Shown: positions 16,658 to 50,191 of the stretch, in pieces
Numbering within the stretch: the first letter of the stretch is position 1
How the letters are laid out: the number at the start of each line of letters is the position of its first letter
Origin: Ewingella americana ATCC 33852
Lineage (GTDB): Bacteria; Pseudomonadota; Gammaproteobacteria; Enterobacterales; Enterobacteriaceae
Length of the DNA stretch: 64,000 nucleotides
Assembly (NCBI RefSeq): GCF_000735345.1
Contig: NZ_JMPJ01000017.1
Coordinates: 1-64,000, forward strand
Direction: 5' to 3'
Position numbers and translations under genes: made by a program
The notes under the pieces: model-generated
Seen by the model: only the letters and a program-made list of their open reading frames with translations
The model's database searches: none
What the model was told of the DNA's origin: nothing

Positions 16658-16682
16658 AGCGCAGGAAGAGCTTCCCTGCGCT
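16658..16682 (-). terminator. terminator of acuI
   Basis: AGCGCAGG and CCTGCGCT pair around an inner AAG/CTT stem. On the minus strand GCTTTGTT follows. The hairpin lies 19 bases beyond the acuI stop codon. Confidence 0.65.
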
Positions 16683-16701
16683 AAGAATTGGCTTGGCGCT
16701 G

Positions 16702-17679
16702 TTAGCGCACCTTAACCAAAGTTCGGCCTGTAATGGTGTTGGCCATTATTGCGGCGGCCGCGGCTGGCGCTTGTTCAAGGCTGATTTCCGTGGCGGCTTG
16801 TTCATAGAATGAAGCAGGAAGAGTCTGCGTCAGGCGCTCCCACGCGTCCATCCGGCGATGCAGCGGACACATCACAGAATCCACCCCTTGCAGGCGGACG
16901 TTGCGCAGAATAAATGGCATTACCGTGGTTGGCAGCTGGTAGCCGCCCGCCAGACCGCAGGCCGCCACCGTGCCGCCGTAGACCGTTTGCGACAGCAAAG
17001 TCGCCAGCGTGTGGTCGCCCACGGTGTCGATGGCTCCGGCCCACAGCTGTTTATCCAAAGCCCGCCCCTCTTTGCTGAACTCTTCACGCGACAGCACGGT
17101 TTTTGCGCCGAGCTGCTCCAGATATTTGGTATTGCTGGCGCGCCCGCTGATCGCCACCACGTCGTAACCGAGGGTCGAAAGCAGGGTGATCGCCGTGCTG
17201 CCCACGCCGCCGCTGGCGCCGCTGACAATCACTTTGCCGCTGTCGGGCAGCACGCCGCCTTCCTCCAAAGCCATGACGCAGAGCATGGCGGTGAACCCGG
17301 CGGTGCCTATAATCATCGCGTGGCGTGAGTCCAGCCCTTCCGGCAGCGGCACCAGCCAGTCCGCTTTAACGCGTGCCTTTTCCGCCAGCCCGCCCCAGTG
17401 GTTTTCGCCCACGCCCCAGCCGGTGAGGATCACCTGCTGGCCGACGCTGAAGCGCGAGTCTTCACTGCTGCTGACGCGACCGGCGAAATCAATGCCCGGC
17501 ACCATTGGGAATTGGCGGATAATCTTACCGGTGCCGGTAATGGCCATCGCGTCTTTATAGTTGAGGCTCGACCAGTCAACGTCGACCACCACGTTGCCTT
17601 CCGGCAGGTCATCTGTGCTGATATCACTCACGCTGGAAAGGGTCTGGCCTGCGTCTTGCTGTAATAAAAGTGCGCGCAT
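16702..17679 (-). CDS. acuI: acrylyl-CoA reductase (NADPH) AcuI
   Basis: 325-aa medium-chain dehydrogenase/reductase without zinc. It reduces toxic acryloyl-CoA to propionyl-CoA with NADPH. The Rossmann motif lies in VSGASGGVGSTAITLL and the start MRALLLQQDAGQTLSSV aligns with E. coli YhdH/AcuI. I prefer the start at 17679; an in-frame start four codons earlier (MELRM) is less likely. The block SSLNYKDAMAITGTGKIIR is characteristic of the family. It is divergent from csrD, as in E. coli, and monocistronic. Confidence 0.95.
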   Translation of the reverse strand: MRALLLQQDAGQTLSSVSDISTDDLPEGNVVVDVDWSSLNYKDAMAITGTGKIIRQFPMVPGIDFAGRVSSSEDSRFSVGQQVILTGWGVGENHWGGLAEKARVKADWLVPLPEGLDSRHAMIIGTAGFTAMLCVMALEEGGVLPDSGKVIVSGASGGVGSTAITLLSTLGYDVVAISGRASNTKYLEQLGAKTVLSREEFSKEGRALDKQLWAGAIDTVGDHTLATLLSQTVYGGTVAACGLAGGYQLPTTVMPFILRNVRLQGVDSVMCPLHRRMDAWERLTQTLPASFYEQAATEISLEQAPAAAAAIMANTITGRTLVKVR

Positions 17680-40847: not shown

Positions 40848-41020
40848 TAAATTTCTCATCTGATACTAGGCAGAGATAGCGCAAAATGGAAGGGCTAACC
40901 TTTCATTCGTCACTACTAAAACGCCTAAAGGCAGTGAAATACCCTGAACCCTCGCCGTCTGATAGCGGTATCCCCAGATTAATCCCAGTTTTGAGAATGT
41001 GATCCGCTTAGGTCACTGCA

Positions 41021-41040
41021 TTTCCACTTTGAACTGGAAA
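41021..41040 (+). promoter_or_regulatory. inverted repeat, possible operator of the accessory operon
   Basis: TTTCCA and TGGAAA are perfect inverted copies with an 8-base spacer, 100 bases upstream of the first gene. It is a candidate binding site for the PRD regulator at 48272-50191, a guess based only on position and symmetry. Confidence 0.35.
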
Positions 41041-41140
41041 AAAACCGTCTACACAGGAAATGCCCACGGGGTTAGGGTAAAGACAGATGAAATAAACGCG
41101 CTTTTTTAGCATTGCACGGCAAGGAGAGGGGTAACCGCGA

Positions 41141-41488
41141 GTGAATAACGGAACCGCATCTGTTAATACGGCAGGGCAAATTGGTTTGGAAGACGCAGAA
41201 GCAACCACAGAGAAAGTGTTAAAAGATATTCAGGTGATGTTGAATGCCGAAAATATCTATACCAATGATGTCCAGCAGCAGATGTTAGCCTCGCACGTTA
41301 AGGCAATGGTATTACGCTCAATTACTGGCGAACCATTACCCGAGGTTGAAAAAGAGCTGTTTGACGAAATCTCTGCGGAGTCAATGCGAATGGCGGAGCG
41401 AGTTGTCGACCTGTTCGGCAATTTACCTATCGAAGAGGCTTATTTACTCTCGGTACATTTTGAAGTCGCAAAAGACAACAATTCTTAA
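41141..41488 (+). CDS. stand-alone PRD domain protein
   Basis: 115-aa soluble protein made of a single PTS regulation domain with no DNA- or RNA-binding part. The two phosphorylatable histidines of a PRD are present: H52 in LASHVKAMVLRS and H106 in EEAYLLSVHFEVAK. It starts with GTG at 41141 after GGAGAGGGG. It is first in the accessory operon, 39 bases before the SFCGS gene. I recall TIGRFAM/Pfam families naming this neighbourhood after Enterococcus faecalis EF_0829-EF_0839, with this protein as the EF_0829 type. It may sense PTS phosphorylation and act on the transporter or regulator; no function is established. Confidence 0.85.
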   Translation: MNNGTASVNTAGQIGLEDAEATTEKVLKDIQVMLNAENIYTNDVQQQMLASHVKAMVLRSITGEPLPEVEKELFDEISAESMRMAERVVDLFGNLPIEEAYLLSVHFEVAKDNNS

Positions 41489-41527
41489 CGATTTATATTT
41501 CACACAATTTATCTGGAGAAAGAACTC

Positions 41528-41893
41528 ATGGGACAAATTACCGTTGTTATCGGCGACCGTTTAGGGAAAGGCCAGAAAGTTGCAGCAGGCGTAGAAGCCG
41601 CAGGTGGCAAGGCTATCGTTGTGCCGGGTGTGGCCGCTGACATGAAATTAGGCGACGTGATGAAAGCAGAAAATGCCACCTTCGGCATCTCTTTCTGCGG
41701 CAGTGGCGGCGCGGGCGCAATTACTGCGCAAACCAAATACGGATATAAAGCAAAATATGGAATGCGCTCTGTGGATGAAGGCGTAACTGCAATTAACGAA
41801 GGTTGTAATGTATTAGGTTTCGGATTTATGGATAAAGAAGAGCTGGGTCAACGTCTGGTTGAAGCTTATATCAAGAAATTCGGCCAGCCGTAA
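41528..41893 (+). CDS. glycine-rich SFCGS family protein
   Basis: 121-aa soluble alpha/beta protein of the SFCGS family, named for FGISFCGSGGAGAI (C57). Function is unknown. The pattern resembles RpiB/LacAB sugar-phosphate isomerases: an N-terminal IGD after the first strand, CGSG at the catalytic-cysteine loop, and CNVLGFG exactly 43 residues from C57 to the last Gly, the same spacing as CGTG to NVLAFG in E. coli RpiB as I recall it. The ring-opening His99 of RpiB would align with N90, so classical isomerase activity is unlikely. RBS GGAGAAA precedes the ATG. It is translationally coupled to DUF4312 (TAATG overlap). Confidence 0.88.
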   Translation: MGQITVVIGDRLGKGQKVAAGVEAAGGKAIVVPGVAADMKLGDVMKAENATFGISFCGSGGAGAITAQTKYGYKAKYGMRSVDEGVTAINEGCNVLGFGFMDKEELGQRLVEAYIKKFGQP

Positions 41894-42189
41894 TGAAACA
41901 ACAATTAACCACCACCGTTCGGGTTGAAGGAAAAGGCGAAAATAAGGCCGCCGCCTTTTCTGCCGCGCTGAGTCAGGTGCAAAGAACCGTTCTTAAATCT
42001 ACGAATAATATCTTGCTGCGAATTGAACCGCAGGACGTCAAGGTGATCACCGCAGAAGAGACGGTAAGAAAGGAAAAGTTCCTGTTCTTTTTTCTGGCCA
42101 GAGAAAGGAAGAGTTATTACTTAGTGCTCGATATTACCGTCAATATGACTGTAATTGAGACTGACAAGGTAGTTTTTGTCACTAAATAA
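41893..42189 (+). CDS. DUF4312 family protein
   Basis: 98-aa protein without signal peptide or clear membrane segment. It starts in the TAATG overlap with the SFCGS gene, so the two are made in a fixed ratio. The N-terminal half is a polar helix region (ENKAAAFSAALSQVQR). The C-terminal half is strand-rich with an aromatic patch KEKFLFFFLARERKSYYLVL. The family occurs only in this kind of neighbourhood to my knowledge, and no activity is known. The consistent linkage to DUF4311 and DUF4310 suggests a cytoplasmic component of one transport complex. Confidence 0.85.
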   Translation: MKQQLTTTVRVEGKGENKAAAFSAALSQVQRTVLKSTNNILLRIEPQDVKVITAEETVRKEKFLFFFLARERKSYYLVLDITVNMTVIETDKVVFVTK

Positions 42190-42190
42190 G

Positions 42191-42231
42191 GAGCCGCTGA
42201 GTCAGGAATTAATATTCCTGATAAAAGGCTC
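42191..42231 (+). promoter_or_regulatory. two-tier intercistronic hairpin (DUF4312 / DUF4311)
   Basis: TCAGGAAT and ATTCCTGA pair around TAAT. An outer pair, GAGCC with GGCTC, encloses it. There is no T-run, so an mRNA-processing or stability element between the soluble and membrane genes is more likely than a terminator. Confidence 0.55.
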
Positions 42232-42266
42232 TAAAAACGTTAGCTATAAATGACAAGGATATACTG

Positions 42267-43043
42267 ATGTTTTTAATTATCTTATTTAAGTCGCTTATTA
42301 TCGGCGGATTGGTCGGCGTGGGCGTAGGTGCAGGTGCTGCACGTATGTTTCACGCGCCAAGCGTGCAAGGGATGGGGGCTTTTCGTACTCTTGGGGAATT
42401 AAATTCCTGTGAAGGCGATCCAGCTTCGCATTTCTCTTTCGGTTTAGGCTTCTTCTTCAACGCCTGGGCGTCTTCTGTCGCAGCAGGTTCCTTCACACAA
42501 GACGTCGACCACCGCATTATTCCTCACTGGGCCGCAGCCTCGTTGATGGTGAAAAACCGCAACGTGTCTGAAACCCTGCACGATCCGCGCAAGATGGCCA
42601 TCGCCGGTGCTGTTATCGGCATGATTGTCGTCGCGTTCCTCAACACCACCGCCTCCGCCGTACCGGCAGCCTTGCAGGTTACCGCGGTCAAAGTGCTGGT
42701 GCCTGCCGCTAACCTGTTGGTTAACACCGTCATGCCGGTGATTTTCTGGCTGGCAGCGATTGACGCAGGCCGCCGCTCCGGCTTCTGGGCCACCATCTTC
42801 GGTGGTTTGGCACAGATGATCATGGGTAACGCCGTGCCGGGTCTGGTACTGGGTATCTTGATTGGTAAAGGCGTCGAAGAGGGCGGCTGGAACCATGTGA
42901 CCAAGGTGATGATGGCGGCAATTATTGCGCTGTTCGTGCTCAGCGGGTTCTTCCGCGGTTTCGATGTGAAATTGCTTCAGTCCTTCATGTTGGATGTTCC
43001 GGCATGGTTGAACGGCATTCACAACTCTCTTAGCGGCAAGTAA
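42267..43043 (+). CDS. DUF4311 family integral membrane protein
   Basis: 258-aa polytopic protein. Hydrophobic segments lie near residues 2-24, 55-75, 109-128, 140-164, 172-200 and 212-230. A conserved-looking polar stretch, GELNSCEGDPASHFSFGLG (residues 43-61), and TQDVDHRIIPHW (78-89) could line a substrate site. The gene lies just before DUF4310, and the pair looks like the two membrane subunits of a transporter. It has none of the EIIC signatures I know, and no ABC ATPase is present. Function unknown; a role in sugar-acid uptake is inferred only from the neighbouring enzymes. Confidence 0.87.
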   Translation: MFLIILFKSLIIGGLVGVGVGAGAARMFHAPSVQGMGAFRTLGELNSCEGDPASHFSFGLGFFFNAWASSVAAGSFTQDVDHRIIPHWAAASLMVKNRNVSETLHDPRKMAIAGAVIGMIVVAFLNTTASAVPAALQVTAVKVLVPAANLLVNTVMPVIFWLAAIDAGRRSGFWATIFGGLAQMIMGNAVPGLVLGILIGKGVEEGGWNHVTKVMMAAIIALFVLSGFFRGFDVKLLQSFMLDVPAWLNGIHNSLSGK

Positions 43044-43052
43044 CAGGGGATT

Positions 43053-43706
43053 ATGACAATGGAAGAACAAGCCAAAAGTGGTTTTTGGTACGCCGAGTGG
43101 TCGTTCCCGATCTTCGTCGGATTACTCTCCTCCGGGGTATTTGCCGGTACGCACATGTACTACCTGTACGGCATCGGTGCCTTTAACGAAGTCGCCTTCG
43201 TGTCAATGCTGCGTTCCGGCATGGATACCGGGGTGTATGGCGCAGTAGCCGCCTTCGGCGCGAGCTTCTTGTTCGCCCGTATTATCGAAGGCTCGCTGGT
43301 CGGTATTCTTGATATCGGCGGCGCTATCCAGACGGGTATCGGGTTAGGGGTTCCGGCGATTCTGCTGGGCGCTGGCATCGTGTTCCCGGTGGCCAACTTC
43401 GCGGCGTCTCTGGTGACTGGCCTGATTCTGGGGCTGGCGGTGGGTTACATCATCATTCTGGCGCGTAAATTTACCATCAACCAGAGTAACTCGACCTACG
43501 GCGCAGACGTCATGATGGGCGCGGGTAACGCCTCAGGCCGCTTCCTCGGCCCGTTGATTATCCTCTCCGCAATGGCGGCTTCAATTCCAATCGGTCTGGG
43601 TTCATTGCTCGGCGCGCTGGTGTTCTACATCTGGCAGAAACCGATCACCGGCGGCGCTATTTTGGGCGCGATGATCCTCGGGGCAATTTTCCCGGTATCA
43701 CTGTAA
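43053..43706 (+). CDS. DUF4310 family integral membrane protein
   Basis: 217-aa very hydrophobic protein with about six membrane segments (near residues 16-40, 60-80, 86-110, 113-137, 163-190 and 197-216). A polar loop TINQSNSTYGADVMMGAGNA (141-160) separates the halves. It follows DUF4311 by 9 bases, with ATG at 43053 or, two codons later, 43059. The glycine-rich repeats resemble channel or carrier cores, but I cannot place it in a known transporter family. It is expected to form the membrane complex with DUF4311. Confidence 0.87.
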   Translation: MTMEEQAKSGFWYAEWSFPIFVGLLSSGVFAGTHMYYLYGIGAFNEVAFVSMLRSGMDTGVYGAVAAFGASFLFARIIEGSLVGILDIGGAIQTGIGLGVPAILLGAGIVFPVANFAASLVTGLILGLAVGYIIILARKFTINQSNSTYGADVMMGAGNASGRFLGPLIILSAMAASIPIGLGSLLGALVFYIWQKPITGGAILGAMILGAIFPVSL

Positions 43707-43747
43707 AGAGTATCGCTGTAGTAGAAAGCAATAAAACGAGTTAAATC

Positions 43748-43775
43748 AGGCGTCGGCGGCTCGCCGCTGACGCCT
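43748..43775 (+). promoter_or_regulatory. strong intercistronic hairpin (transport genes / enzyme genes)
   Basis: AGGCGTCGGCGGC and GCCGCTGACGCCT form a 13-bp stem with one wobble pair and a 2-base loop region. It is followed by AAAAG, not by T residues. It marks the border between the membrane genes and the amidohydrolase gene. Confidence 0.6.
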
Positions 43776-43838
43776 AAAAGCAGGACAGAACGGGTCGGGT
43801 GGCCACTGTAACTGCCCTGCGTTAACGGAGAATGGCGT

Positions 43839-44975
43839 ATGTTGTATGACCTGATAATCCGACAGGCAAAAAGCTCAGACGGCAGCTTGACGGATATTGC
43901 AATTCACGACGGTAAAATCGCCGCCATCGGCCAGCTGGATCCCAGCGTCAGCGCCAAACAGATCCTCGAGCTACAGGGCAAGGTTTTCGCCAGCGCCGGG
44001 TGGATCGACTCTCATGTTCACTGTTATAGCAAATCGCCGATTTATCACGACGAGCCGGACTTAGTCGGCGTCGCCAGCGGCGTCACCACGGTTATTGATG
44101 CAGGCAGCACCGGCGCGAACGACGTCGATGACTTCTACCAGTTGACCCGTCAGGCCAAAACCAACGTCTTTGCTTTCCTCAATATCGCCCGCACCGGCAT
44201 CGTGACCCAAAACGAGCTGGCGGACATGGAGCAAATCGACAAAGTGGGCGTGCGCGAATCTATCGCCCGCAACCCCGGCTTTATCATCGGTATCAAAGCT
44301 CGCATGAGCAGCAGCGTGGTGGGCAAAAATGGCATTAAGCCGCTGAACCGCGCCAAAGAGATCCAGCAGGAAAACGACGACCTGCCGCTGATGGTGCACA
44401 TTGGCAATAACCCGCCAAATCTGGATGAAATCGCCGATCTACTGACTTCCGGCGACATCATCACCCACTGCTACAACGGCAAACCCAACCGCATTTTATC
44501 GCCTGAGGGCGTGCTGCGTGATTCGATTAAACGCGCTCTGAGCCGCGGCGTGCGCCTCGACGTCGGCCACGGCAGCGCCAGCTTTAGCTTTGAAGTGGCC
44601 CAGTTGGCCATTCAGCAAGGCATTTTGCCGCACACCATCAGCTCCGATATTTACTGCCGCAACCGCGTCAACGGCCCGGTCCACAGTCTGGCGGCGGTGA
44701 TGTCTAAATTCTTTACCGTCGGCATGACGTTAGAACAGGTGATTGATTGCGTCACCGCTAACGCCGCCGACGCGCTTCGCCTGCCGTCAAAAGGACGCCT
44801 CGAAGTCGGTGCCGACGCTGACCTGACGCTGTTTGAGATCCAACACGCGCCGAAAGTCTTCCTCGACTCCGAAGGCCAGTCAGTGACCGGCGAACACCAT
44901 CTGATCCCACTGGCCGCCGTGGTCGCTGGCGTCACCCTATTAACTGATGAAGGGAAATCAAATCATGTCTTCTAA
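43839..44975 (+). CDS. amidohydrolase/deacetylase family metallohydrolase
   Basis: 378-aa cytoplasmic enzyme of the amidohydrolase superfamily. Metal ligands are visible: H59 and H61 (WIDSHVHCY), K153 (IGIKARMSSS, probably carboxylated), H187 (LMVHIGNN), H210 (IITHCYNG) and D270 (TISSDIYCRN), the binuclear pattern of dihydroorotase/isoaspartyl dipeptidase relatives. In this neighbourhood it probably removes an N-acyl group from an amino-sugar acid before deamination, or opens a cyclic amide. Start at 43839 ATG after GGAGAATGG. Its last 11 bases overlap the next gene. Confidence 0.88.
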   Translation: MLYDLIIRQAKSSDGSLTDIAIHDGKIAAIGQLDPSVSAKQILELQGKVFASAGWIDSHVHCYSKSPIYHDEPDLVGVASGVTTVIDAGSTGANDVDDFYQLTRQAKTNVFAFLNIARTGIVTQNELADMEQIDKVGVRESIARNPGFIIGIKARMSSSVVGKNGIKPLNRAKEIQQENDDLPLMVHIGNNPPNLDEIADLLTSGDIITHCYNGKPNRILSPEGVLRDSIKRALSRGVRLDVGHGSASFSFEVAQLAIQQGILPHTISSDIYCRNRVNGPVHSLAAVMSKFFTVGMTLEQVIDCVTANAADALRLPSKGRLEVGADADLTLFEIQHAPKVFLDSEGQSVTGEHHLIPLAAVVAGVTLLTDEGKSNHVF

Positions 44976-46092
44976 TGCCGATCTCTACGAAAAATATAAA
45001 TTAAAACAAGTTATTAACGCTTCAGGCCGTATGACCGCACTGGGCGTGTCTACCCCGCGCCCGGAAGTGGCTGACGTGGTGAATACGGGCCTGAATCACT
45101 ACTTCGAAATGAAGGATTTGGTCAATAAAACCGGGGCTTACATCGCCAAGCTGCTGAATGTCGAAAACGCCGTGGTGGTTTCCTGCGCCTCGGCGGGGAT
45201 TGCTCAGTCAGTCGCCGCCGTGATCATCAAAGACAACGCCTGGCTGCTGGAAAACCTGCACGCCGCGCCGCTGGAAGTGCCGCACGACATCGTGCTGCCG
45301 AAAGGCCACAACGTGAACTTCGGCGCGCCGGTCGGCACCATGGTCACCATGGGGGGCGGCAAAATTGTTGAAGCCGGTTATGCCAACGAATGCTCCGCTG
45401 CCCAGCTGGCTGCCTGCATTACACCGCGCACCGCCGCCATTCTGTACATCAAATCGCACCACTCGGTACAAAAAAGCATTCTCTCGGTGGAAGAAGCCGC
45501 CGCCGTGGCGCAGCAGCACAACCTGCCGCTGATAGTCGATGCCGCCGCCGAAGAGGACCTGACCTGCTACTACAACATGGGCGCAACGCTGGTGATTTAC
45601 AGCGGCGCGAAGGCCATCGAAGGGCCAACCAGCGGCTTGGTGCTGGGCAAACACCAGTACGTCGAGTGGGTGAAGCAGCAGTCCGGCGGTATTGGCCGCG
45701 CGATGAAAGTCGGCAAAGAGGGCATTCTTGGCTTAACGCAGGCGATTGAAAGCTACATCACCCAGCCGAAAACCACTGGGCAGGAGATGGTGGACAAGAT
45801 GACGCCATTCATCGAAAGCTTGAACCAAATCAACGGCGTGAGTGGCCGCGTGGTGTGGGACAGCGCCGGGCGCGACATTGCGCGCACCGAAATCACCTTC
45901 GACGAAGCCGTGCTGGGCTGGAAAACCAAAGCCATTGTGGAAGCGATGAAAGAGGGCGATATCGCGGTGTACTTCCGTGGTTACCGCGCCAACGAAGGCA
46001 AGATTGAAGTCGACGTGCGCAGCGTGACCCCGCCGCAGTTAGCCATCGTCGCCGAACGTTTCAAACAAATTTTTGATGGAGCAAAAGCATGA
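44965..46092 (+). CDS. dgaE: DgaE-type pyridoxal-phosphate ammonia lyase
   Basis: 375-aa PLP enzyme of the SelA-like fold I family. The cofactor lysine is K216 in VIYSGAKAIEGPTSG, and IVDAAAEED (190-198) carries the pyridine-ring aspartate. Salmonella DgaE removes ammonia from D-glucosaminate-6-phosphate to give 2-keto-3-deoxygluconate-6-phosphate, and this protein is likely to catalyse the same type of step. I chose ATG 44965 with AAGGGA upstream; six extra codons precede it in frame. It overlaps the amidohydrolase gene by 11 bases and dgaF by 4. Exact substrate stereochemistry is uncertain. Confidence 0.88.
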   Translation: MSSNADLYEKYKLKQVINASGRMTALGVSTPRPEVADVVNTGLNHYFEMKDLVNKTGAYIAKLLNVENAVVVSCASAGIAQSVAAVIIKDNAWLLENLHAAPLEVPHDIVLPKGHNVNFGAPVGTMVTMGGGKIVEAGYANECSAAQLAACITPRTAAILYIKSHHSVQKSILSVEEAAAVAQQHNLPLIVDAAAEEDLTCYYNMGATLVIYSGAKAIEGPTSGLVLGKHQYVEWVKQQSGGIGRAMKVGKEGILGLTQAIESYITQPKTTGQEMVDKMTPFIESLNQINGVSGRVVWDSAGRDIARTEITFDEAVLGWKTKAIVEAMKEGDIAVYFRGYRANEGKIEVDVRSVTPPQLAIVAERFKQIFDGAKA

Positions 46093-46829
46093 ACCTGACC
46101 CCGAACTTCTATCGCGATCGCGTGTGTCTGAACGTGCTGGCTGGCTCCAAAGACAATGCCCGCGACATCTACGACGCGGCGCAGGGCCACGTGCTGGTTG
46201 GCGTGCTGTCCAAGAACTATGCCGATGTGCCTTCTGCCGTAGCGGATATGAAAGAGTACGCGTCGCTGATTGAAAACGCCCTGTCCGTCGGGCTTGGCGC
46301 AGGCGACCCGCGCCAGTCGCTGATGGTCAGCCTGATTTCACAGCAGGTTCAGCCTCAGCACGTCAATCAGGTGTTCACCGGCGTCGGCACCAGCCGCGCG
46401 TTGCTGGGCCAGAATGACAGCGTGGTTAACGGCCTTATCTCCCCAACCGGCAAAGTGGGCTGGGTTAAAATCAATACCGGGCCACTGAGCGCCTCGCAGC
46501 CCGACGCCATCGTGCCGGTCGAAACCGCGATTGCGCTGCTCAAAGACATGGGCGGCAGCTCGGTGAAATACTTCCCAATGGGCGGCCTGAAGACCCGTGA
46601 TGAGTTCGCCGCCGTGGCGCGCGCCTGCGCCGAGCACGACTTCTGGCTGGAGCCGACCGGCGGTATCGATCTGGAAAACTTCGAGCCGATCATGGAGATC
46701 GCCCTCGAAGCCGGGGTGAGCAAAGTCATCCCGCACATCTACAGCTCTATTATCGACAGCGCCAGCGGCGACACCCGTCCGGCCGATGTCAGAACCCTGC
46801 TGGCGAGCGTCAAAAAGCTCGTAAGCTGA
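46089..46829 (+). CDS. dgaF: DgaF-type KDGP aldolase
   Basis: 246-aa TIM-barrel aldolase that splits 2-keto-3-deoxy-6-phosphogluconate-like substrates to pyruvate and glyceraldehyde 3-phosphate. K160 in SSVKYFPMGGLK is the probable Schiff-base lysine, at the place of the lysine in KDPG aldolases (KFFP). WLEPTGGIDLENF supplies the phosphate loop. Translation is coupled to dgaE (ATGA overlap). Together with DgaE it completes the conversion of an amino-aldonate phosphate to central metabolites. Confidence 0.9.
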   Translation: MNLTPNFYRDRVCLNVLAGSKDNARDIYDAAQGHVLVGVLSKNYADVPSAVADMKEYASLIENALSVGLGAGDPRQSLMVSLISQQVQPQHVNQVFTGVGTSRALLGQNDSVVNGLISPTGKVGWVKINTGPLSASQPDAIVPVETAIALLKDMGGSSVKYFPMGGLKTRDEFAAVARACAEHDFWLEPTGGIDLENFEPIMEIALEAGVSKVIPHIYSSIIDSASGDTRPADVRTLLASVKKLVS

Positions 46830-46881
46830 GGTTTCTTCTCGTATTCCAATCCGCGCCGTCAGTTCGCTGCACTGTTAAACA

Positions 46882-46909
46882 CCCTGCGTCGCCGTTTTAT
46901 GGCGCAGGG
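46882..46909 (+). promoter_or_regulatory. intercistronic hairpin (dgaF / lactonase)
   Basis: CCCTGC pairs with GCAGGG and, after a three-base bulge, GCC with GGC around GTTTTAT. No T-run follows. It may attenuate or process the message before the lactonase gene. Confidence 0.5.
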
Positions 46910-46951
46910 ATCCCGCGTTTGTCTGGCAATCCCTTTGATTTGAGGAAATGT

Positions 46952-48148
46952 ATGAGAAACTGGTTACTGATTGCAGGTTTAACATCCGCGATGGTGGCGA
47001 TGTCTGCCACACCGCTCTACGCAGCAGAAAAAGCTATGGCCCAAACTTCACACTATGCCTATGTCGGGACTTACAATCCCAATGGCGAAGGCGTCTATCG
47101 TTTCAAATTTGATAGCAAAACCGGCGCGCTGACTGACCGCGTGTTGGCCAGCCAGTTGCCGAATCAGGCACAGATGGTGGTGAGCCACGACGGCAAAACC
47201 CTGTTCATCGGCAGTGAAATCGATAACTACAATGGCGGCAAAAATGGCGCGATTGCGGCTTATAAAATCAACCCGCAGGACGGCAGCTTAACGCTGATTA
47301 ATCAGGTAGATTCACAGGGCGCAGGCCCGGTTTACCTGTCGCTGACGCCAAAAGGCGACCATCTGCTGGTGGCTAACTACATCAGCGGCGTGGTGGCGAC
47401 CTTCCCGGTTGATGCCAGTGGCAAACTGGGTGAAGCCAGCGATCATCAGCAAGACTCAGGCCCGGCCGGTGCCGCCAAACCTGAAGGTGCGGCGCCGGGC
47501 AGCTTTGCCGCCAGCGACCACAATGGCCCGCACGCGCATATGATCGCCACCGATCCGAGCGGCAAGTTTGTCTTCTCAACCGATCTTGGTCTGGACCGGA
47601 TCTACCAGTGGAAGCTGGACAGCGCCAGCGGCAAGCTGGAAGCCAACGATCCGCCGTTTATCAACGCTTCTTCCGCCGGGGCCGGACCGCGCCATTTCGT
47701 GTTCCACCCGAACGGTAAAGTGGTATTCCTGATCAACGAAGAAGCTTCGACCCTGACCAGCTACCGCTTCGACAGCGCCAAAGGCACGCTGACCCAACTG
47801 CACGTGCTCTCTTCGTTACCGGCTAACTTTAAAGGCACTAACTTTGCCGCCGGTATCGTGCTGAGCAAGGATGGGCATCACCTGTACGTGGCGAACCGCC
47901 TGCACAACAGCATCGCGCAAATCAACGTGACGGGCGAGGGTGCAATGACCTTCGCTGAGGAAGCTTGGACCCGTGGGGACTACCCGCGCACGCTGACCTT
48001 GTCGCCGGATGGAAAATACATTTACGCGATGAATCAACGAAGCGATAACATCACTCGATTCAAGATTGCTGTCGAGAGCGGTAAACTGACTTTTGTGGAT
48101 GATTACACGCCAGTGGGCAGCCCATCGCAGATGGTGATTGTTCCTTAA
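46952..48148 (+). CDS. secreted beta-propeller lactonase (6-phosphogluconolactonase-like family)
   Basis: 398-aa protein with a Sec signal peptide (MRNWLLIAGLTSAMVAMSAT, cleavage near LYA-AEK). The mature part is a seven-bladed propeller of the lactonase family with repeated blade ends such as VFSTDLGLDRIYQWKLD and YVANRLHNSIAQINV. Export rules out the usual cytoplasmic pentose-phosphate role. It probably opens an aldono-lactone in the periplasm. I place the start at 46952 (GAGGAAA upstream). It lies in line with the operon, 122 bases after dgaF, which suggests that the imported substrate can arise from a sugar lactone. Confidence 0.85.
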   Translation: MRNWLLIAGLTSAMVAMSATPLYAAEKAMAQTSHYAYVGTYNPNGEGVYRFKFDSKTGALTDRVLASQLPNQAQMVVSHDGKTLFIGSEIDNYNGGKNGAIAAYKINPQDGSLTLINQVDSQGAGPVYLSLTPKGDHLLVANYISGVVATFPVDASGKLGEASDHQQDSGPAGAAKPEGAAPGSFAASDHNGPHAHMIATDPSGKFVFSTDLGLDRIYQWKLDSASGKLEANDPPFINASSAGAGPRHFVFHPNGKVVFLINEEASTLTSYRFDSAKGTLTQLHVLSSLPANFKGTNFAAGIVLSKDGHHLYVANRLHNSIAQINVTGEGAMTFAEEAWTRGDYPRTLTLSPDGKYIYAMNQRSDNITRFKIAVESGKLTFVDDYTPVGSPSQMVIVP

Positions 48149-48154
48149 GCGCGT

Positions 48155-48211
48155 TACCTCGCGAGGTAGGCGGAAAAAACGGGTGCGGGGTGACGCAGTG
48201 GGTCATCCCGC
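48155..48211 (+). terminator. paired hairpins after the lactonase gene
   Basis: TACCTCGCGAGGTA (48155-48168) is a perfect palindrome. A second stem, GCGGGGTGAC with GTCATCCCGC (48185-48211), has one wobble pair and is followed by CTTGTCATTT. They separate the catabolic genes from the regulator gene. Partial termination is likely. Confidence 0.55.
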
Positions 48212-48271
48212 CTTGTCATTTCAAGTGGCAGTAGAATTGATGTTTCACAGCAACAACCAACTGGAAGGATT

Positions 48272-50191
48272 ATGGTGAGATTTCCCTATCAACGACTGGC
48301 CCATCTGTTTGATGCATTACAGGCCGAAACGCTGCCTCAGGACGAGCTGGCGAAGCGCCTTGACGTCTCCACTCGCACCGTGCGCGCTGACATTACCGCG
48401 CTAAATGAAATCATGGCCCAGTACGGCGCCTCCTTTGTGCATAACCGCGGCAGTGGTTATCAGCTAAAAATCGACGACCAGACGCTGTTCTCTGCGTTGC
48501 AGGAAACCAACAATCGCCGGGTCAGCCCAACGCCGCGCACCGCGCCGGAGCGGGTGAATTATCTGCTTATACGCTTTTTGACCTCAGCTTTCTCGCTCAA
48601 GCTGGAAGATCTGGCCGATGAATGGTTTGTCAGCCGGGGAACCCTGCAAAATGATATGGCTGAGGTCAGAGAACATCTGGCACGTTACCACCTGAGCATT
48701 GAAACCAAGCCGCGCTACGGTATGAAGCTGTTTGGCGCGGAGTTGGCGATCCGCTCCTGCCTGACAGATTTGTTGTTCCAGCTGGAAAGCGACGAACAGA
48801 GCCATCCGCTGCTGAAAACCGAGAGTCTGGCGCTTGAGGCGCTGGGGCCGTTAACCGATTTTATGCACCAGTCGCTGGCGCAGTCTTCCATTCAGCTGAC
48901 CGATGAAGGCGAGCAGTACCTGATTTTGTACTGCGCGGTGGCGATTAAGCGCATTAGCGGCGGCTATCCGTTGACAGATTTTGATGCCGAAGAGGGCGAC
49001 CCGGCAGTGAAGCAGGTCTCCACGCGTCTGGCGGCCGAGCTTAAAGCACTGGTGGGTAAGGAGATCCCGGCGGCGGAAGAAGCTTATTTGCGGGTGAACA
49101 TCGCAGCGCGGCGGGTACAGAACATTTTGCCGACGGACATTAACGCTGACGACGATGAGTCGCTGGTGGATTACATTCTGTCCTATATCAACGCGCACTA
49201 TAACTATGATTTGCAAGGGGATAAGCAGCTGCGCGCTGACCTTCTCACCCATATCAAGACCATGATCACCCGGGTGAAGTATCAGATTAATATCCCCAAC
49301 CCGCTGCTGAGCAACATCAAGCAGCACTACCCGATGGCCTATGACGTCACGCTGGCCGCAGTCTCCAGCTGGGGTAAATACACGCCGTATTCGCTCAGTG
49401 AGAACGAAATCGGCTTTCTGGTGCTGCATATCGGCGTCGGGCTGGAGCGCCACTACAACATCGGCTACCAGCGCCATCCGCAGGTGATGCTGGTGTGCGA
49501 TACCGGCAACTCGACCATTCGCATGATTCAGGCGCAGATCAGCCGCAAATACCCGCAGCTGGTGGTGACGCAGGTGGTGTCGCTGCGCGATTACGAGAAG
49601 CTGGAGCACATCGACGAAGACTTCATCATCTCCAACGCGCGTATCAATGAGAAGAACAAGCCGGTGGTGGTGCTGTCGCCATTCCCGACCGAATACCAGA
49701 TGGAGCAGCTCGGCAAGCTGGTGCTGGTCGACCGCACGCGGCCCTACATGCTGGAGAAGTTCTTCGACGAGCGCCATTTCATGATAATTAATGAGCCGAT
49801 GACCCAGGCCGAGCTGTTCCACAAAGTGTGCAGCCAGCTGGAAGAAGAGGGCTATGTTGACGCGGAGTTCTATCCGTCAGTGGTCGAGCGCGAAGAGATT
49901 GTCTCGACCATGCTGGGCGAAGGCATTGCGCTCCCGCACTCGCTGGGGCTGCTGGCAAAGAAAACCGTGGTGATCACGCTGCTCTCTCCACAAGGCATCG
50001 AGTGGGGCGATGGCGAAACCGCGCACGTGATCTTCCTGCTGGCGATCAGCAAAGCGGACTATGAAGAGGCGATGGCGATTTACGACTTATTCGTGACCTT
50101 TGTGCGGGAAAGGTCGATGAGCCGTTTGCTGAGCAGTGAGAGTTTTGATTCTTTTAAAGCGATAGCGATAGATTGCTTGAGTAGGATTTAA
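48272..50191 (+). CDS. PRD-containing transcription regulator with EIIB- and EIIA-like domains
   Basis: 639-aa regulator of the BglG/MtlR class. Domains in order: helix-turn-helix (about 8-45, DELAKRLDVSTRTVRADIT), second winged helix (about 95-150), PRD1 (about 190-285), PRD2 (about 295-395), EIIB-like (about 404-490, C409 in VMLVCDTGNS) and fructose-type EIIA (about 500-637, H556 in GIALPHSLG). PRD2 keeps both histidines (H327, H386). PRD1 appears to have lost them (YCAVAIKR and N276). PTS phosphorylation would therefore act through PRD2 and the EII domains. There is no AAA+ domain, so it is not a sigma-54 activator. It is the likely regulator of the operon at 41141-48148. Confidence 0.9.
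   Translation: MVRFPYQRLAHLFDALQAETLPQDELAKRLDVSTRTVRADITALNEIMAQYGASFVHNRGSGYQLKIDDQTLFSALQETNNRRVSPTPRTAPERVNYLLIRFLTSAFSLKLEDLADEWFVSRGTLQNDMAEVREHLARYHLSIETKPRYGMKLFGAELAIRSCLTDLLFQLESDEQSHPLLKTESLALEALGPLTDFMHQSLAQSSIQLTDEGEQYLILYCAVAIKRISGGYPLTDFDAEEGDPAVKQVSTRLAAELKALVGKEIPAAEEAYLRVNIAARRVQNILPTDINADDDESLVDYILSYINAHYNYDLQGDKQLRADLLTHIKTMITRVKYQINIPNPLLSNIKQHYPMAYDVTLAAVSSWGKYTPYSLSENEIGFLVLHIGVGLERHYNIGYQRHPQVMLVCDTGNSTIRMIQAQISRKYPQLVVTQVVSLRDYEKLEHIDEDFIISNARINEKNKPVVVLSPFPTEYQMEQLGKLVLVDRTRPYMLEKFFDERHFMIINEPMTQAELFHKVCSQLEEEGYVDAEFYPSVVEREEIVSTMLGEGIALPHSLGLLAKKTVVITLLSPQGIEWGDGETAHVIFLLAISKADYEEAMAIYDLFVTFVRERSMSRLLSSESFDSFKAIAIDCLSRI

Follow-up and report, generated by a model that had tools for sequence, protein, structure and literature searches.

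How does an operon with a familiar pair of amino-sugar-acid catabolic enzymes bring its substrate into the cell, when the genes in front of that pair belong to families that are largely without an assigned function? This question is raised by positions 41141..50191 of a 64,000-nucleotide stretch of DNA from Ewingella americana ATCC 33852 (contig NZ_JMPJ01000017.1, positions 1 to 64,000; hereafter the window), which carries genes for the catabolic enzymes DgaE and DgaF, a deacetylase, two membrane proteins (DUF4311 and DUF4310) and the small proteins SFCGS, DUF4312 and PRD. The eight-gene operon at this locus is real and conserved, and its families are familiar to curators but mostly lack a function. 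Catabolism of an N-acyl-amino-aldonate 6-phosphate is its best-supported function, as judged from the predicted enzymes. In the leading reading, to which we assign somewhat less than an even chance, the N-acyl-amino-aldonate would be taken up and phosphorylated at the expense of the phosphotransferase system (PTS), followed by deacetylation, deamination and aldol cleavage. The features of the locus are as follows.

41021..41040, no strand assigned: palindrome TTTCC-N10-GGAAA with conserved arms, probable operator of the PRD/EIIA regulator (putative binding)
41141..41488, + strand: small stand-alone PRD protein (TIGR03582), GTG start; 135.1 bits, cut-off 69.35
41528..41893, + strand: SFCGS glycine-rich protein (TIGR03577), RpiB/LacAB-like, with Cys57; NCBIfam score above the cut-off
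41893..42189, + strand: DUF4312 small soluble protein (TIGR03578); 121.5 bits, cut-off 89.65
42267..43043, + strand: DUF4311 membrane protein (TIGR03580), proposed permease subunit; 497.1 bits, cut-off 301.1
43053..43706, + strand: DUF4310 membrane protein (TIGR03579), proposed permease subunit; 392.8 bits, cut-off 215.45
43839..44975, + strand: amidohydrolase/deacetylase (TIGR03583; relatives 8WZY, 2ICS and 2OGJ); score above the cut-off
44947..46092, + strand: DgaE-family pyridoxal phosphate (PLP) ammonia lyase (TIGR01437); 580.6 bits, cut-off 385.3
46089..46829, + strand: DgaF-family KDGP aldolase (TIGR03581, NF047796; relatives 3M0Z and 3LM7); NF047796 383.8 bits, cut-off 300
46919..48148, + strand: lactonase-like seven-bladed propeller, TTG start, accessory; Pfam Lactonase 332.9 bits
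48272..50191, + strand: regulator with Pfam HTH_11, Mga, PRD and PTS_EIIA_2 domains

A preliminary description of the window had proposed nine same-strand genes and a same-strand regulator, and all ten open reading frames (ORFs) were confirmed on the + strand with the same coordinates, eight of them matching curated families. The cut-offs of eight NCBIfam models (TIGR03582, TIGR03577, TIGR03578, TIGR03580, TIGR03579, TIGR03583, TIGR01437 and TIGR03581) are exceeded, and Pfam matches were obtained for SFCGS, DUF4312, DUF4311, DUF4310, KDGP_aldolase and Lactonase. The small PRD protein scores 20.1 bits against Pfam PRD, slightly under the 23-bit cut-off, while lying far over that of TIGR03582, and its H52 and H106 are kept in 93/93 loci. 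Overlapping junctions are found between SFCGS and DUF4312 (1 nucleotide), the deacetylase and DgaE (29 nucleotides) and DgaE and DgaF (4 nucleotides). With all its members above cut-off and colinear, the eight-gene set belongs to the EF_0829-EF_0839/AHA_3910-3917 group (TIGR03577-TIGR03583), in which the same families occur, most of them named after loci only. A search by title retrieved no relevant literature on DUF4310, DUF4311 or DUF4312 or on the EF_083x and AHA_391x tags, and the passages of PMC8262876 make no mention of the cluster. Papers mentioning dgaE, the DgaE family or KDGP aldolase do exist, and one mentions cog3964.

The membrane pair occurs together with DgaE and DgaF. A scan of genome contigs found at least 498 places encoding a DUF4311 relative, of which the best 80 were analysed; these are close relatives rather than independent cases, and all but L039 (Xenophilus) apparently belong to Enterobacterales. 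A complete and colinear core of eight genes is found in 79 of the 80, the remaining locus (L064) being cut by a contig end after DUF4310, and the regulator was detected in 78 of the 79 loci with a full core. Among 197 genomes of the order of Ewingella, SFCGS occurs in 20, one being a below-cut-off remnant (G319). The DgaE family is found in 21 genomes (22 genes) of a same-sized sample, apparently the same 197 genomes, including 20/20 of those with SFCGS; the 21st genome, 75% complete, carries DUF4311-DUF4310-deacetylase-DgaE-DgaF on a 4.3 kb contig, as read by eye. In these samples DUF431x genes were not common without dgaE and dgaF, the DgaE family being present in 79/79 full-core loci and 20/20 SFCGS genomes. 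Two exceptions to the pairing were seen. At L003 (7011-9346, A. caviae KAM479) the matches run from the start of DUF4310 straight into DgaF; neither the deacetylase nor DgaE is matched, and this strain carries a natural internal deletion. L149, the locus of G319, is decayed, with a PRD match, a 36-residue piece of SFCGS, a partial deacetylase, DgaF, the regulator and a DgaE frame that is still open; no DUF4310-4312 match was found there. The coherent DgaE/DgaF-linked module with an uncharacterised membrane pair, as described earlier, is upheld, and the N-acyl-amino-aldonate substrate named with it fits the enzymes but is unproven.

The lactonase, which had been counted as part of the module, does not belong to the conserved core. 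A match is found in 35 of the 78 regulator-bearing loci, that in L011 being a fragment of 32 residues, and since the other 43 have none, the gene is regarded as accessory. Its N-terminus resembles a signal peptide, as judged by eye. The same gene order without a lactonase was also found in four loci (L145, L146, L147 and L150) from 2.2-2.7 Mb genomes of one family in the same taxonomic order, in three Aeromonas-like loci (L148, L151 and L152), in two near-identical Bartonella plasmids (L005 and L006) and, together with extra genes, in Enterococcus faecalis (L007). Of the genera in which the neighbourhood had been said to recur, Enterococcus and Aeromonas were seen.

The catabolic enzymes retain the residues expected of active proteins. 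In the metallohydrolase, whose nearest relatives are 8WZY and 2ICS, the residues presumed to be the metal ligands of the superfamily are kept, with H59, H61, K153, H187 and D270 present in 91/91 loci and H210 in 90/91, the exception being the decayed L149. EF0837 and one relative have reportedly been described as acetyl-(R)-mandelate hydrolases; a literature search found no paper naming either. DgaE falls within the broad DgaE family and below the D-glucosaminate-6-phosphate lyase equivalog model (353 bits against a cut-off of 600), and it aligns with D-glucosaminate-6-phosphate lyase 7LC0. According to PMC9529869, the active-site residues of this lyase include His162/His163, of which His162 is proposed to contact O6 or the phosphate; Arg226 is the carboxylate partner, Arg301, Arg332 and Arg346 constitute the modelled substrate-phosphate site, and the PLP lysine is named Lys-217, which was counted here at 213 in the aligned chain. 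The window DgaE retains all of these residues except Arg226, which is replaced by Lys. Across the 91 loci with a DgaE match, of 93 searched, the equivalents of His163, the PLP lysine, R301, R332 and R346 are kept without exception. Because the phosphate-site arginines are kept, the substrate reaching DgaE is expected to carry a 6-phosphate, and no kinase was found among the ORFs of the window cluster by NCBIfam and Pfam annotation. An N-acyl-amino-aldonate would fit an intact metallohydrolase acting before DgaE.

The dgaABCDEF operon of Salmonella serves the use of D-glucosaminate, according to PMC9529869. The window cluster shares with it the DgaE/DgaF chemistry, the phosphate-site arginines, the catalytic histidines and the arrangement of permease genes followed by E and F. 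In contrast, PRD-SFCGS-DUF4312-DUF4311-DUF4310 replaces the Man-family PTS permease DgaABCD, and a deacetylase and sometimes a lactonase are added. In one genome (G351) a DUF431x cluster coexists with a second DgaE copy that lies in a classical dga operon, the order of this operon by Pfam being a 946-residue sigma54-activator/PRD regulator, EIIA-man, PTSIIB_sorb, EII-Sor, EIID-AGA, DgaE and KDGP aldolase, with no deacetylase between the permease and DgaE. This order indicates that the DUF431x module stands where the dga operon has its PTS permease, and in the 197-genome sample DgaE accompanies either a Man-family PTS permease or a DUF431x module.

A second link to the PTS is provided by plasmids of Bartonella sp. 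HY406 and HY761, in which PRD-SFCGS-DUF4312-DUF4311-DUF4310-deacetylase-DgaE-DgaF-regulator is followed by a fusion of HPr and enzyme I (EI). The HPr-EI protein comprises 671 residues with both domains, and both of the usual histidine motifs are present. Among 39 features in bases 1-45000 of the HY406 plasmid, whose gene table is incomplete, no other PTS component is named. The best-scoring relatives of HPr-EI outside Bartonella are from Caballeronia and Paraburkholderia. The top one, at 55%, adjoins a ptsG IIBC gene, as seen in C. grimmiae, the one annotated case examined; two further cases carried no annotation. Alphaproteobacteria lack PTS permeases and use the PTS for regulation, as stated in PMC2937029. 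A private HPr-EI in Bartonella would make most sense if phosphoryl groups flow through the cluster. Within the window cluster, the regulator encodes an EIIA-type phosphohistidine domain (PTS_EIIA_2), for which a role in transport is putative, and Pfam detects no other PTS EII domain.

On the basis of these observations, a possible route can be proposed. The substrate would be an N-acylated 2-amino-aldonate of the glucosaminate or a related series. Phosphoryl groups from phosphoenolpyruvate (PEP) may be relayed by EI and HPr, first to the regulator's EIIA domain, the small PRD protein or both, and then to Cys57 of SFCGS, which would act like an EIIB. The DUF4311/DUF4310 membrane pair, aided by DUF4312, could import the substrate and release it inside as the 6-phosphate. 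The metallohydrolase would then strip the N-acyl group, DgaE would form a 2-keto-3-deoxy-aldonate 6-phosphate by elimination of water and ammonia, and DgaF may cleave this product into pyruvate and glyceraldehyde 3-phosphate. The lactonase, where present, probably opens a lactone outside the cytoplasm, and the regulator may sense the phosphorylation state of the system and act at the palindrome at 41021-41040.

The proposed role of SFCGS as carrier depends on its cysteine. Cys57 is invariant in the 92 loci with an SFCGS match, of 93 searched. PF02502 (LacAB_rpiB) weakly matches 23/27 SFCGS members (best E 0.0012; the window protein scores 15.5 bits, below the cut-off of 24.7), and two NCBIfam RpiB models match 26/27 members (best E 3.9e-5), covering in the window protein the same stretch as PF02502. 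The NCBIfam LacB model is also matched, and a few unrelated models appear at weaker E. A profile-profile alignment by hhalign of 21 SFCGS and 30 RpiB sequences gave E 1.6e-4, a probability of 51% and a score of 30.2; 100 column shuffles reached at most 22.5, and the reversed alignment scored 13.7. The similarity spans SFCGS residues 40-117 and brings the cysteine of SFCGS into register with the cysteine loop of RpiB, where its counterpart is presumably the catalytic cysteine of RpiB. Judged from these profile comparisons, SFCGS is a remote relative of the RpiB/LacAB superfamily, a kinship that is new here, and Cys57 is proposed to be an EIIB-like phosphocysteine carrier. Alternatively, SFCGS could be a catabolic isomerase of the RpiB/LacAB type with a pathway that starts from an aldose or ketose derivative. 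The breadth of the model matches and the conserved cysteine of what we take to be the active-site loop would suit an isomerase, whereas the scores stay under the family cut-offs, the His of the N-terminal DH motif of RpiB is Arg in SFCGS, and SFCGS has no counterpart of the C-terminal region of RpiB (both judged by eye), so that part of the isomerase active site is lacking. This alternative is considered improbable. When profiles of SFCGS, DUF4311, DUF4310 and DUF4312 were compared with PDB sequences, nothing usable was obtained; a match of DUF4312 to RecA was rejected, since it covers a short helix that recurs within an artificial chain.

By a simple hydropathy count, DUF4311 and DUF4310 are hydrophobic with five strong segments each, and no strong segment was found in DUF4312, SFCGS or the PRD protein. 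Histidines H29, H55 and H82 of DUF4311 and H34 of DUF4310 are invariant (92/92). No significant similarity was detected between DUF4311 and DUF4310. The pair could also be an exporter or a membrane enzyme, with uptake through another permease. No family of known transport function matches these proteins above its cut-off, as such a role would allow; against it, DUF4311 and DUF4310 stand with catabolic genes in 79/79 fully visible loci, and the window cluster holds no other permease, which makes it the least probable of the readings considered here.

Several observations weigh against phosphorylating uptake. Neither DUF4311 nor DUF4310 matched an EIIC or EIID family of Pfam with an E of 10 or less, in a search whose filters drop most matches above 0.1. 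When their profiles were compared with those of the Man IIC and IID proteins of G351, the scores stayed within the range of 40 shuffles or were reached by at least one shuffle. A weak similarity to DUF2232 was instead found for DUF4311. It is shared by all 27 members, with a best E of 5e-4 (0.11 for the window protein), although the window protein scores 12 bits against PF09991 (DUF2232), far under the 27.8 cut-off. The corresponding hhalign comparison gave E 8.9e-4, a probability of 23% and, across 131 columns, a score of 32.6, whereas none of 40 shuffles exceeded 19.4; this control is lenient, as column shuffling also destroys the membrane-helix rhythm. DUF4311 (42267-43043) is closer to DUF2232 than to any PTS membrane subunit; no comparable weak similarity was found for DUF4310. 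DUF2232 is presumably a relative of the substrate-binding subunits of energy-coupling factor (ECF) transporters, and if this kinship holds, DUF4311 is likelier a substrate-binding membrane subunit than an EIIC. AlphaFold models of DUF4311 and DUF4310 were poor, with predicted local distance difference test (pLDDT) values of 54.1 and 51.1, probably because only close homologues were available (30 rows at 81% identity or more and 23 rows at 76% or more), and no fold is claimed; a Foldseek search with the DUF4311 model returned 62 matches at E up to 10, none at or below 0.001. The other proteins add to these points. The equivalent of DgaE His162 is present in 89/91 loci and is Ala in both Bartonella copies, and position 226 is Lys in 53 and Arg in 38 of the 91 loci, so that the substrate may differ from glucosaminate. 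The Bartonella HPr-EI could serve only the PRD/EIIA regulator. In E. faecalis the cluster (L007, 10620-18454) additionally encodes a separate PTS_EIIC, a small hydrophobic protein, a PfkB kinase and the 6-phospho-N-acetylmuramidase MupG, and its regulator is divergent, with 22% identity and no EIIA match. To our knowledge, no EIIB with an RpiB fold has been described.

These points would fit a rival reading, in which DUF4311 and DUF4310, together with DUF4312, form a non-phosphorylating permease, ion-coupled or DUF2232-like, with a kinase encoded elsewhere, the PTS acting only in regulation and SFCGS serving as a sensing or coupling protein. The missing EIIC/EIID similarity, the resemblance of DUF4311 to DUF2232, the confinement of PRD and EIIA domains to the regulator and the PfkB kinase of the E. 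faecalis cluster would all follow from it. On the other hand, the window cluster lacks a kinase and yet keeps the phosphate arginines of DgaE, the Bartonella plasmid has a whole HPr-EI and no other PTS client among the features listed, and the module stands where the dga operon has genes for a PTS permease. The DUF2232 similarity and the replacement of His162 by Ala in Bartonella weaken the case for PTS-energised phosphorylating uptake and strengthen that for a non-phosphorylating permease, which we regard as a serious possibility, though a slightly less probable one than the former. Two relationships that had been considered for the membrane pair received no backing: a likeness to the Man family is unsupported by Pfam, the profile tests and Foldseek alike, and nothing supports a likeness to Mtr, for which no sequence comparison was made.

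The extra genes of the E. faecalis version, which differs from the window cluster in its additional EIIC, MupG and PfkB kinase and in its missing operator, hint at a disaccharide substrate there.

The regulator combines HTH_11, Mga, PRD and PTS_EIIA_2 in one chain and belongs to the PRD/EIIA transcription regulators of the MtlR/LicR type, whereas a sigma54-activator type stands beside the canonical operon (L183). Over 90 loci, leaving out E. faecalis L007 and the contig-end-cut L032 and L064, the EIIA H556 and PRD H386 are present in all, PRD H327 in 89 and the IIB-like Cys409 in 82. The palindrome TTTCC-N10-GGAAA reads TTTCCACTTTGAACTGGAAA in the window (41021-41040), and its arms occur in the 400 bases that precede the PRD gene in 84/85 loci, including the Bartonella plasmids, with E. 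faecalis as the sole exception; upstream of six other cluster genes they occur in 0 of 83-85 loci each. The best 20-mer match reaches at least 15/20 in 84/87 rows, against a maximum of 13 in one composition shuffle per row. A genome-wide search with the fuller degenerate pattern TTTCCRNTTYGAANYGGAAA found a single exact match in the genome of the window; at two mismatches there were three further places, against two control matches. The simplest reading of this distribution would be one operator for one operon, and the PRD/EIIA regulator probably acts at the palindrome.

A comparable arrangement may exist in the yhf operon of Escherichia coli (yhfZYXW-php-yhfUTS). Its products include YhfY, a small PRD protein that matches the window-type one with a profile E of 4.5e-4, and YhfU (DUF2620), which is RpiB-like and has a cysteine. 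YhfT, a polytopic membrane protein, and php, a putative hydrolase, are likewise encoded. YhfU resembles RpiB in the same cysteine loop (E 5.2e-4, 27 columns). However, YhfT shows no significant similarity to DUF4311 or DUF4310, direct profile tests between SFCGS and YhfU/DUF2620 were not significant, and the enzymes differ. DUF2620 is matched by 7/27 SFCGS members (best E 0.0024), and unrelated families match similarly, for example DUF1685 (15 members, best 0.0061). The genes yhfY-yhfU-yhfT are kept together with php, yhfW, yhfX and yhfZ (L184, L185, L186 and L090), also in the genome of the window, and YhfY, YhfT and YhfU occur together in three further genomes. By analogy, the yhf operon suggests a parallel design of PRD, RpiB-like and membrane proteins.

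In a broad class sample, one of 274 genomes was positive, namely the window's own; no cluster relative was found in viral contigs and no DNA match to the cluster in E. coli genomes, and DUF4311 was found in 0/347 genomes of the order of G445 (guessed to be that of Bartonella), a search without positive control. In an unrooted FastTree phylogeny of six concatenated proteins, L039 is the partner of the Bartonella pair (support 0.96), and E. faecalis joins the family of 2.2-2.7 Mb genomes (support 0.76), a topology that would be consistent with horizontal spread outside Enterobacterales. The Bartonella plasmids, which are 55-56 kb and come from bat faeces (L005, L006; L088), carry a type VI secretion set in addition to the cluster, and a mirrored duplicate of a rep/ParA/RelE region. 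The records NZ_AP026896.1 and CP125156.1 are labelled as plasmids of 4.9 and 5.4 Mb and are most likely chromosomes.

Concerning its surroundings, the cluster had been described as inserted between rnk and npr. This wording implies a recent arrival, but comparable surroundings, with rnk, npr or pmbA-cybC, are found at many loci of Rahnella, Rouxiella, Serratia and Yersinia, consistent with long residence in these genera. The flanking names rnk, npr and rapZ are presumed or taken from the preliminary description, while yjgA, pmbA and cybC are the names annotated in the K. pneumoniae match. In a K. pneumoniae locus (L004), a RelB/RelE-type toxin-antitoxin pair (16669-17185) follows immediately after the regulator. 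No mobility genes were noticed among the window-cluster ORFs as read, with no search aimed at them, and no Rfam family matched. Scans for promoters and terminators did not rise above chance (6 against an expected 5.8, and 13 against 11.4, respectively); a terminator-like hairpin lies at 48185-48211 between the lactonase and the regulator, hairpins of this kind being at chance level overall. The G+C content is about 46% in the first genes (41000-42000) and about 56-59% in the later ones.

Four points go beyond the preliminary description, namely the optional lactonase, the operator, the kinship of SFCGS to RpiB/LacAB and the PTS link, which comprises the Bartonella HPr-EI, the EIIA/PRD regulator and the retained phosphate site of DgaE. 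The finding of both kinds of DgaE operon in G351 is also new. PTS permeases fall into few superfamilies. A further-reaching and rather unlikely proposal is that SFCGS-DUF4312-DUF4311-DUF4310 and the PRD protein constitute a new structural class of phosphorylating PTS permease, in which the phosphocysteine carrier has an RpiB/LacAB fold and the membrane subunit no kinship to known EIIC, and of which the yhf system could be a second branch. If true, a PTS group without a detectable EIIC or EIID relative would represent a new coupling of PEP to sugar uptake. Even with an ordinary permease, four orphan families at the at least 498 DUF4311-type loci would gain a testable substrate class and a probable operator.

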